Shown piece by piece: positions 1,237 through 60,403 of a DNA stretch of 64,000 bases. Position 1 is the stretch's first letter. Each line of letters begins with the position of its first letter. Position numbers and translations under genes: made by a program. Origin of the DNA: Bacillus sp. ISL-37 (GTDB taxonomy: Bacteria; Bacillota; Bacilli; Bacillales; Cytobacillaceae); contig NZ_JAGGQL010000006.1 of assembly GCF_018613315.1 (NCBI RefSeq), positions 163,384-227,383 of the forward strand, read 5' to 3'. Below the pieces are notes generated by a model. The model was given only the letters and a program-made list of their open reading frames with translations. It was not told the DNA's origin and ran no database searches.

Positions 1237-1671
1237 ATGAACCTGTCATAATTCAGGGCTTATCGTGACAGCTTTTCCGCTTTCACTCGCGAACCTGTCA
1301 CGATTCCGAGGTTTTCTTGACAGCTTTTCGGCTCTCACACCCAAACCTGTCACGATTCCGAGGTTTTCTTGACAGCTTTACGGTTCTTACACCCAAACCT
1401 GTCACGATTCCGAGGTTTTCTTGACAGCTTTTCGGCTCTCACACCCAAACCTGTCACGATTCCGGCGTTTTCATGACAGCTTTACGGCTCTTATACCCAA
1501 ACCTGTCACGATTCCGAGGTTTTCTTGACAGCTTTTCGGCTCTCACACCCAAACCTGTCACGATTCCAGGGTTTTCTTGACAGCTTTACGGCTCTTACAC
1601 CCAAACCTGTCACGATTCCGAGGTTTTCTTGACAGCTTTACGGCTCTTTCACCCAAACCTGTCAGAATCCT
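1237..1671. repeat. 52-bp tandem array, TGACAG family, copy 1
   Basis: The motif CCTGTCA starts at 1242, 1294, 1346, 1398, 1450, 1502, 1554, 1606 and 1658, an exact 52-bp period throughout. Each unit is CTGTCA, 17 bp, TGACAG, 23 bp, so every unit carries an inverted pair of 6-bp arms. The linker (around CGGCTCTCACACCC) is specific to this array, while arms and the TTTTCTTGACAGCTTT block are shared with arrays at 27.4 and 58.3 kb. It fills the gap between the convergent lipoprotein operon and ybaK. No reading frame runs through it, as 52 is not divisible by 3. Confidence 0.95.
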
Positions 1672-5352: not shown

Positions 5353-5470
5353 CCAACAGAGATTATATTGCTCCCAACATATTGCTTCAAATGGAAATTA
5401 TATCGCTCCCAACGGGGATTATATCGTTTCTAACAGGAATTATATCGCCCCCAATGGGGATGAAAACCCA
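5353..5470. repeat. About 21-bp repeat array, ATTATATCG family
   Basis: ATTATATYG starts at 5362, 5397, 5418 and 5439: one irregular 35-bp step, then two exact 21-bp steps. Typical units read ATTATATCGCTCCCAACGGGG. The array lies between a terminator and the 3' end of a convergent gene. A short open frame across it is an accident of the 21-bp (7-codon) period. Confidence 0.85.
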
Positions 5471-5494
5471 ACTAACCGGAAATAACCTCTATTA

Positions 5495-7677: not shown

Positions 7678-7795
7678 AATAATCTCTCGATCAATACGGT
7701 TAATCTCTCGATAAAAAGCATTATTCTCTCGATGAATCGAAAAAATCTCTCCATAGAAGTAAGTAATCTCTCACTCAACCCAAATAATCTCCCAT
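7678..7795. repeat. Exact 21-bp repeat array, AATCTCTCGAT family
   Basis: AATCTCTC-like cores start at 7681, 7702, 7723, 7744, 7765 and 7786, an exact 21-bp period over six units, although the rest of each unit has diverged. It lies between two terminators in a convergent gap. The minus-strand frame through it is a product of the 7-codon period and is not a gene. Confidence 0.9.
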
Positions 7796-8579: not shown

Positions 8580-8915
8580 TTAGACATTTTGACTTCATTC
8601 ATGCTTCAAAATGTCTATTAAAACTTGTTTCTTAGACATTTTGGATCCATTCTCACTTCAAAATGTCTATTAAAGCCTGTTTCTTGGACATTTAATTCCA
8701 TTTGCACCTCAAAATGTCTATTAAAGCCTGTTTCTTAGACAATTCAATTCCATTCGCACTTCAAAATGTCCATTAAAATCTGTTTCTTAGACATTTCAGG
8801 TCCATTCACACTTCAAAATGTCTATTAAATCCTGTTTCTTAGACATTTCAAATCCATCCGCACTTCAAAATGTCCATTAAAACACACTTCTTGGACATTT
8901 CGAGTCCATTAAAGC
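8580..8915. repeat. 52-bp tandem array, AGACAT family
   Basis: ATGTC starts at 8611, 8663, 8714, 8766, 8818 and 8870 (steps 52, 51, 52, 52, 52). Units read ATGTCT, 17 bp, AGACAT, 23 bp: the same arm length and spacings as the TGACAG arrays, but with different arm and linker sequence. As in those arrays, TTTCTT precedes the right arm. It lies between the codirectional genes mapA and pgmB. Confidence 0.95.
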
Positions 8916-19709: not shown

Positions 19710-19835
19710 ATTTTTTTATTGGCGGTTTTCACAACTTTATTGGCGATTTTCAAATTTTATTGGCGAAAATATATATATATTGGCGATTTCACCCTACTTA
19801 TTGGCGAAAATCAGATTTTATTGGCGAACTGGAAA
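19710..19835. repeat. 20-21-bp repeat array, TTGGCGA family
   Basis: TTGGCG starts at 19719, 19740, 19760, 19780, 19801 and 19821 (steps 21, 20, 20, 21, 20). The intervening sequence is AT-rich and diverged. It lies beyond the 3' end of the HAD phosphatase gene. Overlapping open frames through it are products of the period and lack ribosome sites. Confidence 0.9.
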
Positions 19836-26134: not shown

Positions 26135-27379
26135 ATGCTGAAAGCTAGGTTATATGATTTCACGTTATTCTTTACTGCTGTTGCCGTGGCTTTTGGATTA
26201 GGTACCTTCACTATAGATAAAAACAATTTTTTTATAGCACTTTTTATCTACTGGTTATTTTCAACCCTTTATAATCACTTAAGAATCACAGCGAAAAATG
26301 GAACGCTGAAATTTGATTATGGGATTAGTTATAGTTTATCTTTCGCCATTTTTGCAGGTCCGATAGGTTTGTTCATTTTTGAAGCAATCTATCGTTTCAC
26401 AGTCTATTTTTCAAGAAAAAGTTCGAAAACGGCCGATGAAAGTGAGTTTTCCGATACATTTTACAATATAGGCGCTCATGTCCTGATCTACTCGATTGGT
26501 TATTACCTATTCCAGCTCGGATATCCTTTAATAGAGAATATCCCCTTCGGATTCTTTATCTTGATGTGCATCCTTGCTGTAACGACCACGTTGATTTCCT
26601 ATACCTTCTTGAGCACTGCCTTTTACATTATGGGAGAAATCAAGAGCCTGCAGCAGGCAATCAAGTTTTTCAAAGAAAGCAATAACTGGCTGGATCTTGG
26701 CAAAACAGCATTCACGAATGGCTTACTGCTGCTTTTACTAGAGGAACAGCGATGGGAAATGGTCGTTGGATTATTCATTCTGAACTATCTCGTCAGCCGT
26801 TCCTTCCAATCAAAGTCGCAAAGCATCCAGAACAAAATCGAGCGGGACAAGTTCGAGCAAATGGCCTATACGGACTTCCTGACCGGGATCCCGAACCGCG
26901 CATACATGGATAAAAAAATGTTTGAGTTGAACCATACTGGTGAAAAAATCGGCATCGTTGTAGCCGACATCGATAAATTCAAGCTTATAAATGATTCCTA
27001 CAATCATGCCGTAGGCGACCGGGTGATCCAGCATTTTGCCCATACTCTCAAAAGCTACTTGTCAGAAGACGATCATGTTTTCCGCAGCGGCGGGGAAGAA
27101 TTCACATTGATCCTCAGGAATAGATCCTTCAGCCAAAACATTGATCTTGTGGAAAAGATTCGCCATGGGGTTGAGGTAAGTTCAGTGGAGGTTGATTATC
27201 AATCCGAGAAGCATGCTGTTTCAATAACCTCTTCATTTGGGTTGTATTATTTTAAAGTCAACCAGTACACTTCGATGGAAAAAGGGTATATCTTTGCTGA
27301 CCAGCTCTTGCTGCAATCGAAGGACCTTGGCAAAAACAAAGTTACCTTTAAGGACGAGCTTTCACGACAAACAGGATGA
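26135..27379 (+). CDS. Membrane diguanylate cyclase (GGDEF)
   Basis: About 414 residues. Some six membrane helices (residues 1-225) form a MASE-like sensor, followed by a linker helix and a GGDEF domain (about 240-405). The signature is GGEEF at 319-323 and the metal-binding aspartate is in VVADIDKFKLINDSY, so c-di-GMP synthesis is expected to be active. I see no RxxD inhibitory site directly before the signature. A GTG at 26102 is in frame, but AAAGGGG at 26117-26123 fits ATG 26135 better. No EAL or PilZ gene is nearby. Confidence 0.85.
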   Translation: MLKARLYDFTLFFTAVAVAFGLGTFTIDKNNFFIALFIYWLFSTLYNHLRITAKNGTLKFDYGISYSLSFAIFAGPIGLFIFEAIYRFTVYFSRKSSKTADESEFSDTFYNIGAHVLIYSIGYYLFQLGYPLIENIPFGFFILMCILAVTTTLISYTFLSTAFYIMGEIKSLQQAIKFFKESNNWLDLGKTAFTNGLLLLLLEEQRWEMVVGLFILNYLVSRSFQSKSQSIQNKIERDKFEQMAYTDFLTGIPNRAYMDKKMFELNHTGEKIGIVVADIDKFKLINDSYNHAVGDRVIQHFAHTLKSYLSEDDHVFRSGGEEFTLILRNRSFSQNIDLVEKIRHGVEVSSVEVDYQSEKHAVSITSSFGLYYFKVNQYTSMEKGYIFADQLLLQSKDLGKNKVTFKDELSRQTG

Positions 27380-27389
27380 GAACAATAAC

Positions 27390-27420
27390 AAAAGACAGAG
27401 AAGTCATTCTCTGTCTTTTG
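27390..27420 (+). terminator. Terminator of the GGDEF gene
   Basis: AAAAGACAGAGA pairs perfectly with TCTCTGTCTTTT around a 6-base loop. Confidence 0.9.
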
Positions 27421-27445
27421 TGCACTAGCAGGGTTATGCTATTTT

Positions 27446-27950
27446 GACAGGATTTCTGCTTTGCGAGGCAAACCTGTCACAAAAACAGGATTTTCTTGAC
27501 AGCTTTTCTGCTTTGAAACCCAAACCTGTCATAATAACGAGATTTTCTTGACAGCTTTTCTACTTTGAAAGTCAAACCTGTCATAATTACGAGCTTTTCT
27601 TGACAGCTTTTTTGCTCTGAAACCCCAACCTGTCATAATAACGAGCTTTTCTTGACAGCTTTTCTGCTTTGAAACCCAAACCTGTCATAATAACGAGCTT
27701 TTCTTGACAGCTTTTCTGCTTTGAACCCCAAACCTGTCATAATAACGAGAGTTTCTTGACAGCTTTTCTGCTTTGAACCCCAAACCTGTCACAATAACGA
27801 GATTTTCTTGACAGCTTTTCTGCTTTGAAACCCAAACCTGTCATAATTACGAGCTTTTCTTGACAGCTTTTCTGCTTTGAACCTCAAACCTGTCATAATA
27901 ACGAGCTTTTCTTGACAGCTTTTCTGCTTTGAACCTAAAACCTGTCTAAA
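27446..27950. repeat. 52-bp tandem array, TGACAG family, copy 2
   Basis: CCTGTC starts at 27473, 27525, 27577, 27629, 27681, 27733, 27785, 27837, 27889 and 27941, ten heads at an exact 52-bp period. Arms are CTGTCA and TGACAG, 17 bp apart, with an array-specific linker (TTCTGCTTTGAAACCCAAA). It has the same orientation as the arrays at 1.2 and 58.3 kb and again lies in a convergent gap, between the GGDEF and DsrE genes. Confidence 0.96.
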
Positions 27951-30599: not shown

Positions 30600-30840
30600 T
30601 CGCTTTCATTTCACGCATTGCAGAGCCGTCCTTTTACCCTTTTCAAACTTTCCAACTCATTTCGGGTAATGCAGGGGCTTTCCTTTTACCCTTTTCATAC
30701 TTTCCAGCTCATTCCGGGCAATGCAGAGCCTTTCCTTTTACCCTTTTCATACTTTCCAACTCAGTTCGGGCAATGCAAGGCCTTTCCTTTTACCCTTTTT
30801 AAGCTTGCCCGCTCATTCCGGGCAATGCAGGGGCTGATTA
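30600..30840. repeat. 52-bp tandem array, GGGCAATGCAG family
   Basis: TGCAG-type cores start at 30619, 30670, 30722, 30774 and 30826 (steps 51, 52, 52, 52). Arms GGG(C/T)AA and TTACCC are 16 bp apart, with 24 bp to the next unit, and TTTCCTT precedes the right arm, the same plan as the other 52-bp arrays. It follows the terminator of the DAO-like gene. An open frame through it repeats in a shifting frame and is not a gene. Confidence 0.93.
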
Positions 30841-55064: not shown

Positions 55065-55215
55065 TAGCGATGGTAACATTTAGTGGCCACTATGATCATC
55101 CATCGTGAATGCAGTGGGAAGCTTTGAAGTACAGTCTTTATTTGGACACTTGGACTGTATGGAGCTACTAGTGTAACCGGCCCTCTTAGAAGTACATAAA
55201 TCTAAGGGGAGAGAT
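55065..55215 (+). promoter_or_regulatory. Structured 5' leader of the secreted protein gene
   Basis: At least three hairpins can form: CGATGG/CCATCG enclosing the palindrome TAGTGGCCACTA (55081-55092); TACAGTC/GACTGTA around 55130-55160; and CCCTCTTAGA/TCTAAGGGG, whose right arm contains the ribosome binding site AAGGGGAG. The last would hide the ribosome site. I could not match it to a known riboswitch class. Confidence 0.5.
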
Positions 55216-55220
55216 GAAAA

Positions 55221-55715
55221 ATGAAAAAGGTATTAACAGGATTAGCGGCAGGCGCATTGGCAATGGGGATTTTTGCAAGTTCTTCGTTGGCGGCAGTGAC
55301 TTATGACTCATCAGCAGGTACAGGATTTGTTGGTAAAGGTGACGTACAGCAGGCTTTGGGTTGGAATAATGCTCAATTGCAGAAAGAAGCTAATAACTTA
55401 GTATTTACTTATGAAACAGTAAATACCTATGCGGTGACTGTAACTTGGACTACTGGTGAAGGAACTAAAGGCGAGAAGACCCACATCTTAGAATATAAGA
55501 GGACTTCAGAAGTAACTTCAAGTTTAGATTCCTCTGCTAGAAAAGCTAATCAGTTTACTGGTTTCATTTTAAATGGTGTTAAAGATACTACAGTACAAGG
55601 AGCAGTACCGGCAGATGGTGAGGAATTCCCTGGAAACTCAGGCCATACAGTTACTAATGTAGAATTAGTCTCTAGCACAAGCACTCTATATGTAAACGGA
55701 GTACAATTGCAATAA
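55221..55715 (+). CDS. Secreted protein of unknown function (GKGDVQ family)
   Basis: A 164-residue protein with a typical signal peptide (1-24, SSSLA-A). The mature part begins VTYDSSAGTGFVGKGDVQQALGWN, continues with NTYAVTVTWTTGEGTKGEKTH and ends in a beta-rich stretch. I recall the FVGKGDVQ...LGWNN / TWTTGEGTKG pattern from uncharacterised secreted proteins in several phyla, with no known role. It has no cysteine. AAGGGGAG precedes the ATG within a possible hairpin. Monocistronic, with a terminator. Confidence 0.8.
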   Translation: MKKVLTGLAAGALAMGIFASSSLAAVTYDSSAGTGFVGKGDVQQALGWNNAQLQKEANNLVFTYETVNTYAVTVTWTTGEGTKGEKTHILEYKRTSEVTSSLDSSARKANQFTGFILNGVKDTTVQGAVPADGEEFPGNSGHTVTNVELVSSTSTLYVNGVQLQ

Positions 55716-58217: not shown

Positions 58218-58269
58218 ATAACGGATGTTTTGTCATTTTTTTTTTTACAGTTTGGTCCTCTTCCACCTG

Positions 58270-58800
58270 GGAGCTGTCACAATAACAGCATTTTCTTGAC
58301 AGCTTTGGCCTCTGAAACCTGTCACAATAACAGTATTTTCTTGACAGCTTTGACCTCTTTTACCTGAAACCTGTCACAATAACGGCATTTTCTTGACAGC
58401 TTTGGCCTCTTCTATCTGAAACCTGTCACAATAACAGCATTTTCTTGACAGCTTTGGCCTCTTCTATCTGAAACCTGTCACAATAACAGCTTTTTCTTGA
58501 CAGCTTTGACCTCTTTTACCTGAAACCTGTCACAATAACAACTTTTTCTTGACAGCTTTGAGCTCTTACACCTGAAACCTGTCACAATAACAGCTTTTTC
58601 TTGACAGCTTTGAGCCCTTACACCTGAAACCTGTCACAATAACGACCTCTTCTTGACAGCCTTGAGCTCTTACACCTGAAACCTGTCACAATAACAACGC
58701 TATCTTGACAGCTTTAGCCCTTTCTCCTTCAAACCTGTCTAAATAACGATGGTTTTTTGACATCTTTGAGACTTCCACCTGCAAAGCTGTCAAAATAATA
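58270..58800. repeat. 52-bp tandem array, TGACAG family, copy 3
   Basis: CTGTC starts at 58274, 58319, 58371, 58423, 58475, 58527, 58579, 58631, 58683, 58735 and 58787: one 45-bp first step, then nine exact 52-bp steps. Arms and spacing are as in the arrays at 1.2 and 27.4 kb, with its own linker (GGCCTCTTCTATCTGAAA). Again in a convergent gap, between ahpF and mqo, and in the same orientation. Confidence 0.96.
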
Positions 58801-58843: not shown

Positions 58844-58887
58844 AAAAAAACCTTCAATCCCCAACTGGGATTAAAGGTTTTTCTATC
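58844..58887 (-). terminator. Terminator of mqo
   Basis: AAAAACCTTCAATCCC pairs with GGGATTAAAGGTTTTT, with A/T runs outside; strong in either direction. Confidence 0.88.
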
Positions 58888-58903: not shown

Positions 58904-60403
58904 TCAGCTATAAACTCTCTCTTTATCGCTTAATCCCAGCACCTTGGCAGTTGATTCATGGATATCATGGAACAGCTCTGGGTTGTTCACTAATGACACG
59001 CCATAGGTAGGGACGATTTCCTTTATTTTATCCTTCCAATTGAACATTTGCTCAGGGAAGCATTTTTCTAACACTTCCAGCATGACGTTTACAGCAGTGG
59101 ACGCACCAGGTGATGCACCTAGCAATGCCGCTACTGAGCCATCAGAGGCGCTTACAACCTCTGTACCGAACTGTAGTGTCCCTTTGCCAGTGTCGGTATC
59201 CTTGATGACCTGGACACGCTGTCCTGCCACCACGATTCCCCAGTCCTCGCTCTTGGCATTAGGAATAAACTCACGGAGTTCTTCCATCCGTTTTTCATGA
59301 GAGAGCATCACTTGCTCGATCAGATACTTAGTCAATGCCATTTCTTTCATGCCTGCTGCCAACATAGTAATCACATTATTCGGTTTCACTGAACCAATCA
59401 AATCCAAATTCGAACCTGTTTTCAGGAACTTAGGTGAGAAACCGGCAAACGGTCCAAACAGCAAGCTCTTCTTATTATCGATAAATCTTGTATCAAGATG
59501 CGGAACTGACATCGGTGGAGCGCCTACCTTGGCTTTTCCGTATACCTTTGCATGGTGCTGTTCTACTACTTCTGGATTGTTGCAGACCATGAACAGTCCA
59601 CTTACAGGGAATCCGCCAATATGTTTTGATTCAGGAATACCTGTCTTTTGCAGTAATGGCAGACTTCCGCCCCCGCCGCCGATAAAAATGAATTTCGTAG
59701 TATGATATTCAGTTTTACCGCTTTCAAGGTTTTGCACTTTCAGTTCCCATAATCCATCACTTGTACGATTGATATCTTTAACACTATGGTTATAGTTAAT
59801 CTCAACATTCTTACTCTCCAAATGATCAAACAACATACGAGTTAACGCACCAAAGTTAACATCTGTTCCTGAATCAATTTTGGTTGCCGCTATCGGATCA
59901 TTAGAGGTACGGCCCTCCATGACTAATGGAATCCATTGCTTGAGTTTTTCAGGGTCTTCGGAGTATTCCATTTCCTGAAACATAGGAATACCTGAAAGCG
60001 CTTTAAATCGTTTTTTCAAAAACTCAACATTTTTTTCGCCTTCTACTAAACTCATATGAGGCAGCGCCCTGATAAAGTCCTGAGGATTACGAATCAAGTT
60101 GCTTTTTACAAGATATGACCAAAATTGCCTTGAAACTTGAAACTGCTCATTTACGTTAATTGCCTTGCTAATATCTATCGATCCGTCGGGTTTTTCAGGT
60201 GTATAATTCAACTCACACAGAGCAGCGTGCCCAGTACCCGCATTATTCCACTCATTAGAGCTCTCTTCACCTGCAGAAGCCAGTTTTTCAAAAACTTTAA
60301 TGTCCCATTCTGGTGCTAACTCTTTCAGTAAGGATCCCAACGTCGCACTCATGACTCCGGCACCAATTAAGATAACGTCTGTTGCTTTCTGTACGTTGCT
60401 CAT
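58904..60403 (-). CDS. mqo: Malate:quinone oxidoreductase
   Basis: A 499-residue, FAD-dependent, membrane-associated enzyme that oxidises L-malate to oxaloacetate and passes electrons to quinone. The FAD motif [17 protein letters not shown], [35 protein letters not shown] segment near residues 40-70, [13 protein letters not shown] and [13 protein letters not shown] near the C-terminus are family landmarks. Length is normal. GGAAGGG precedes the ATG. Monocistronic. It complements or replaces malate dehydrogenase in the TCA cycle. Confidence 0.95.

Follow-up and report, generated by a model that had tools for sequence, protein, structure and literature searches.

Tandem arrays with a strict period of 52 bp in Bacillus sp. 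ISL-37 and its relatives share a common sequence grammar, and on both replichores asymmetric arrays nearly always point with replication, irrespective of how the neighbouring genes are arranged. Judging from these sequence features, an array is probably a platform of regularly spaced putative sites for one or more dimeric or pairwise-binding proteins, with a direction that runs from origin to terminus. In the window, by which we mean the whole 64,000-nt stretch of DNA that was analysed, the following features are relevant.

1240 to 1664, minus strand: array 1, of class TGTCAAGAAA..(A/T)TNGTGACA as read on the minus strand, which is leading here; about 8 units, flanked by a convergent gene pair
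1294 to 1325, no strand assigned: example of a 27-bp site in a unit of array 1, TGTCACGATTCCGAGGTTTTCTTGACA at 1296 to 1322, with two inverted half-sites and a variable centre
8604 to 8910, minus strand: array 2, whose arms read TGTCTAAGAA..TTAATAGACA on the leading (minus) strand; about 6 units, flanked by co-directional genes of the minus strand
27388 to 27421, minus strand: terminator-like inverted repeat beside array 3; palindromic, so may serve the plus-strand gene that ends at 27379
27444 to 27946, minus strand: array 3, of the array 1 class; about 9.7 units between convergent genes
30615 to 30832, minus strand: array 4, of period 52 without TGTC/GACA and with a looser GGTA-N19-GCCC on the minus strand; about 4 units
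58239 to 58798, minus strand: array 5, of the same class as array 1; about 11 units, one of them shortened near the array start; convergent genes
58856 to 58872, plus strand: terminator-like inverted repeat past array 5, between it and the gene at 58904 to 60403

An earlier, sequence-only reading of the window had described array 1 as nine CTGTCA heads spaced exactly 52 bp apart, with arms alternately 17 and 23 bp apart, and had placed CTGTCA/TGACAG arrays with ten and eleven heads near 27.4 and 58.3 kb. Both descriptions hold on the sequence, the latter two arrays being arrays 3 and 5. Its count of three copies in 64 kb is right for CTGTCA/TGACAG arrays but missed two more period-52 arrays, arrays 2 and 4. 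Taking CTGTCA/TGACAG as the arms was too narrow, because this is one arm class among several. The arms of array 2, TGTCTATTAA..TTCTTAGACA, are unlike those of array 1, yet the frame is TGTC-N19-GACA here too. Array 4 reads GGGC..TACC in the opposite direction and fits the shared grammar loosely; a short array related to it is present in another genome of our set (G002) near 627007. Elsewhere in the window, positions 55108–55191 on the plus strand match the Cyclic di-GMP-II riboswitch (72.6 bits, above the Rfam threshold) just upstream of the ORF at 55221–55715.

The genome-wide scan that the sequence-only reading had proposed showed that the arrays are not limited to the window. The two-unit pattern TGTC-N19-GACA-N25-TGTC-N19-GACA matched 506 times in the 4.74-Mb source genome (G000), with no match to the reversed-pattern control. 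The same pattern was found in 20 of 21 genomes of the genus (16 to 615 matches each) and in 136 of 194 genomes of the family, with almost no control matches in either set. When the pattern was extended to three units, with K as first and third base, 69 of 300 genomes of the order had it; among 399 genomes spread across the phylum it occurred in none besides the source. G012 had no array even when two mismatches were allowed and is the only array-free genome of the genus, though it is 100% complete. Because the arrays are patchy and wholly lost in some lineages (G012; many genera have none), they are dispensable over evolution, a point against the platform. We found no period-52 array in 100 kb from each of two Paenibacillus-like genomes, which is too little sequence to contradict the published report. 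Among viral sequences a single contig matched, with three units, and we therefore rejected viral cargo as the origin of the arrays.

The period does not drift. Thus neither of the two outcomes that the sequence-only reading took as arguing for a simple minisatellite, arrays limited to the window or a freely drifting period, was seen. Consecutive sites were 52 bp apart in 214 cases compared with 3 at 51 and 3 at 53, and among the matches listed from at least 80 loci of other genera, 361 were at 52 and 8 at 51. We also searched without regard to sequence, scoring self-match at lag 52 in parts of G000 (0.40 Mb), G002 (1.2 Mb) and G650 (0.15 Mb). In G000 and G002 this gave 43 arrays at lag 52 compared with 0–6 at neighbouring lags, making 52 by far the commonest non-coding period. 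The arrays are non-coding and of several sequence families per genome, and 52 is not divisible by 3.

These arrays have a grammar in common. The core [TG]G[TG]C-N19-G[AC]C[AC] with a 25-bp linker was perfect in 38 of 46 consensuses of sequence-blind arrays from three genomes (G000, G002, and G650), compared with 0.4% of shuffled consensuses. Inside arrays, 241 instances of TGTC-Nx-GACA had x = 19, and no other x in the range 8–33 gave more than 4; GACA-Nx-TGTC was present 245 times with x = 25. The six bases that follow the core distinguish the classes: TGTCAAGAAA with TGTCACAATA; TGTCCGAAGT; TGTCTAAGAA with TGTCCATTAA; TGTCCGTCAT; TGTCCGATAG with TGTCCGTTAG; GGTCACCAAT with GGGCGCCAAT; GGTCACAAG with GGGCACATGT; and others besides. 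Several contigs of G017 carry CGAAC-class arrays in which one arm always has AGTC and the other TGTC, another fixed asymmetry, at position 1. Linkers are near-identical inside an array and similar between arrays, unlike in CRISPR, where unique spacers lie between identical repeats; spacers of that type are absent. Linkers are also related between different loci of one class. Together with the retention of an array at the array 5 locus in related genomes, this indicates that arrays stay where they are and that loci are also linked by common ancestry or by conversion.

To see which parts of the unit are conserved, we counted pairwise differences between units of the same array (38 arrays, 291 units). 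The mean difference was 0.17 per position. Two half-sites, each about 15 bp long and mirror images of one another, had lower values, 0.03–0.12 at most of their positions. A half-site is roughly AAA-NN-[TG]G[TG]C-NN-body, and its conserved parts are the A-rich stretch upstream of the core, the core and body positions 7–10, with positions 5–6 intermediate. The site is 27 bp across and is followed by the 25-bp linker, with arms of about 10 bp inverted around a variable 7-bp centre. Differences were higher in the central loop (about 0.2) and the linker centre (about 0.3). Left and right half-site bodies of one array agree far above half-sites of other arrays, so recognition seems to be symmetric and class-specific. 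We saw no compensatory change at paired stem positions; observed values equalled those of within-array shuffles at all informative pairs, with few informative arrays per pair. Because paired positions do not covary, the unit looks like a dimer-type DNA site and not a hairpin. Judged on sequence, such a footprint would be expected from selection acting on two protein half-sites. A point against the platform is that units could also be kept alike by gene conversion or unequal crossing-over, but neither would by itself spare the half-sites over the linkers. These data support the idea, already put forward in the sequence-only reading, of a putative multi-site for a dimeric protein, for which each unit should have, as it does, two inverted half-sites that stay conserved within arrays.

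Few isolated sites exist outside arrays, and those that are near-palindromic are mostly short array remnants or lie inside genes. None of the isolated sites was a convincing promoter-linked single site of the kind that would mark a self-regulated binder gene. The array, and not the single site, thus appears to be the working form.

The sequence-only reading had missed the orientation of the arrays with replication. With the leading strand of G000 and G002 inferred from GC skew, the purine-rich strand was the leading strand in 40 of 42 arrays. Mean purine skew was 0.20 in arrays compared with 0.046 in 546 array-free gaps of these genomes, so that array skew exceeds background about four times in purines, and about twice in G. 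The 20–21 bp arrays of the same genomes had no comparable leading-strand skew. Because composition alone could mislead, we used arm asymmetry to assign orientation. On the closed chromosome G003, the class TGTCAAGAA..ATTRTGACA (AAGAAA->ATAATA) lies on the plus strand at 0.18, 0.37, and 1.39 Mb and again at 4.53 and 4.64 Mb; the minus strand carries it at 1.19 Mb and at eight further loci between 2.57 and 4.38 Mb. From this flip we predicted beforehand an origin at 4.38–4.53 Mb, and dnaA was then found at 4.46 Mb. By reading the list, about 13 of 14 loci of this class follow the flip at the origin. The array near 1.188 Mb is an exception and could be a recent inversion.

The GGTC-N19-GCCC class was listed in six closed chromosomes (G003, G005, G007, G011, G009, and G020). 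In the first four, taking dnaA as the origin and the half-way point as the terminus, every one of the 40 loci had GGTC ahead of GCCC on the leading strand, this class having been picked for the test after the pattern was noticed. These loci lie beside co-directional leading genes (19), between convergent (8) or divergent (7) genes, or beside head-on genes (6), some of the neighbours being short ORFs. We rejected the idea that orientation is set by transcription from the upstream gene, because head-on and convergent loci follow replication instead. The loci listed in G009 and G020 agree with replication orientation by eye. Judged by composition, the rule was followed in G020 by only 8 of about 10 loci, and one symmetric GGTC..GACC array was reversed in composition. 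G or purine skew cannot explain the orientation of the GGTC..GCCC class, because enrichment of G or purines would give GGGC..GACC, the reverse of GGTC first and GCCC second. The arrays are spread along the whole chromosome, including near the origin.

A wider scan, with one genome per species, covered at least 80 loci with 8-kb DNA from about 20 named genera, mostly of Bacillales, plus Alkalibacterium; a few record names in it look doubtful (Chryseobacterium sp. ISL-80, B. subtilis SK7B5, Paenibacillus bovis). Among the matches listed (80 loci), orientation agreed with flanking GC skew in 68, opposed it in 2, and was ambiguous in 10, loci of related species not being independent. The two opposing loci among these matches (L252 and L285) are both from Heyndrickxia acidiproducens and could be recent inversions.

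The sequence-only reading knew of no description of such repeats. However, tandem repeats with a constant size of 52 nt and variable sequence have been published, mainly from Bacillus, with Mesobacillus relatives named among the carriers, and with either a nucleoid protein polymerising on DNA or small RNAs as suggested roles (Subirana and Messeguer, 2021, Int J Mol Sci 22:5373; PMC8161180). These are the same objects as ours, with a strict 52-nt period, many families per genome, species-specific sequences and variable unit number, and several of the published consensus units contain TGTC-N19-GACA by eye, for example TGTCCTTCATaagggtGATGAAaGACA of B. coagulans. The 52-nt families were stated to have no sequence conservation, just short species-specific signals (PMC8161180). 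This differs from the common core in 38 of 46 arrays, which revises the description and not the membership. As far as the 2021 text could be read, it contains neither the common grammar nor the footprint of the half-sites nor the orientation with replication, and these go beyond it (PMC8161180). A second class of repeats, of 20–21 nt, was also described (PMC8161180). Tandem arrays of 20–21 bp at 5396–5481, 7680–7737, and 19714–19828 of the window belong to this second constant-size class, and many such arrays of the source genome contain TTAT(T/A)GGCGA-like motifs.

Arrays lie mostly just past gene 3′ ends. Their neighbourhoods in G000 and G002 were convergent in 16 cases, co-directional in 24 and divergent in 2; as a comparison, all gaps of the same two genomes numbered 225, 837, and 226, respectively, both sets resting on crude gene calls. 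Most arrays in co-directional placements were closer to the upstream gene's 3′ end. Where array 5 lies (gene 58904–60403), 11 of 20 related genomes have an array directly past the conserved intrinsic terminator of that gene. Orientation at this locus is always the same, unit number ranges from 2 to 17, and the class is the same except in G018. A one-unit remnant is present here in G017.

We considered it unlikely that the arrays are neutral minisatellites, expanded by slippage or unequal crossing-over and made asymmetric by a chromosome-wide replicational mutation bias. The free variation in unit number at the array 5 locus, the loss of arrays from many lineages and the leading-strand purine and G excess that intergenic DNA also has would all fit with this. 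By contrast, it accounts poorly for array skew so far above that background, for the lack of comparable skew in the 20–21 bp arrays, for a GGTC-first order opposite to the expectation from base excess, for half-sites spared relative to linkers, and for exactly 52 bp and one core common to unrelated arrays. Function as RNA, with transcribed repeats forming hairpins or sponges as Subirana and Messeguer suggested, seems improbable to us. Transcripts of 52-nt arrays were seen in RNA-seq of B. coagulans by the same authors (PMC8625621; PMC8161180), and some units fold somewhat better than shuffles (z about –3 to +0.5). However, orientation tracks replication even beside head-on genes, arrays often begin past an intrinsic terminator, no Rfam family matches them, and the GGTC..GCCC class keeps mismatches at position 3:25 that would weaken a stem. 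Structured RNA or hairpin elements would also be expected to show covariation of stem pairs, which these arrays lack (few informative arrays per pair). Selection for an RNA hairpin or a cruciform was rejected on this lack of covariation and the modest folding z-scores.

The instability of inverted repeats is known to depend on their orientation. It is conceivable, with a similarly low probability, that arrays survive only where the worse-folding strand is the lagging-strand template and are otherwise deleted, which would explain polarity relative to the lagging-strand template without a protein. The predicted folding difference nevertheless changes sign by class, the leading sense being more stable in most arrays of G000, G002, and G020 and less stable in 61 of 78 GGTC..GCCC loci among the matches listed, and the half-site footprint is left unexplained. 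We rejected strand-folding stability as the cause of orientation because of these opposite signs. Like the BIME/REP elements of enterobacteria, the arrays are intergenic, mostly past gene 3′ ends, palindromic, clustered in tandem and present in many copies per genome, and their orientation relative to the fork resembles that known for IS200/IS605-type elements. Mobilisation by a Y1 (RAYT) transposase on lagging-strand single-stranded DNA is all the same highly improbable. REP elements are not bound to one strict period, whereas the 52-bp arrays have one, together with varied bodies and replication orientation. PF01797 is without a match in two genomes of at least 99% completeness, G000 with 506 pairs and G020 with 519, and is present in the array-free G012. 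A Y1 transposase is thus disfavoured as a present-day requirement, being absent from two of the richest genomes, although an extinct or unrecognised enzyme is possible. It is very unlikely that the units are core sites of a tyrosine recombinase such as dif or lox. The likeness lies in anatomy alone, that is, the inverted arms and the 7-bp centre; a recombinase is expected to collapse direct repeats, and we know of no counterpart to the strict 52-bp tandem arrangement.

Other known systems share single properties with the arrays. Ter sites, used with RTP in B. subtilis or Tus in E. coli, have an orientation set relative to replication, and RTP sites are imperfect dyads of about 30 bp. The arrays likewise have a fixed orientation, but they lie along the whole chromosome and not mainly near the terminus. 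RTP was rejected as the binder, since none of the 21 genomes of the genus had a match over the PF02334 cut-off, with B. subtilis as a positive control. KOPS/SRS and Chi are short single motifs with replication-linked orientation, whereas the 52-bp arrays are long and phased with dyad half-sites. Plasmid centromere arrays, such as the 43-bp repeats of F sopC, are tandem inverted-repeat units bound by a partition protein; by contrast, the arrays studied here are chromosomal, occupy dozens of loci, fall into several classes and are oriented with replication.

Constant-size 52-nt tandem repeats of Bacillus were reportedly described by Subirana and Messeguer in J Bacteriol in 2020, and since then these satellites have been a puzzle, having a single strict length and seemingly unrelated sequences. 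In the platform that we propose, the half-sites of the unit would be bound by a predicted sequence-specific protein that is dimeric or binds in pairs, or by a small group of related proteins of this kind. Because recurrence at 52 bp is about five helical turns, the sites would fall on one face of the helix, and contacts between neighbouring dimers along the array may fix the spacing. The complex would be directional towards something that travels from origin to terminus, such as the replication fork, a DNA translocase or SMC, and the array could thereby act as a directional chromosome element. The shared grammar defines the bait for a pull-down, the 52-bp spacing is the feature to alter, and the orientation points to the machines worth examining; the array-free G012 is a natural comparison for finding a candidate binding protein. 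More tentatively, the arrays of many Bacillales genera might be chromosome-wide, directional and helically phased putative protein-binding elements that run from origin to terminus, act on the fork, a translocase or SMC, and form a bacterial counterpart of oriented boundary sites. If the binding protein is found, the arrays may prove to be a directional chromosome-organising element in a large bacterial group that lacks RTP.
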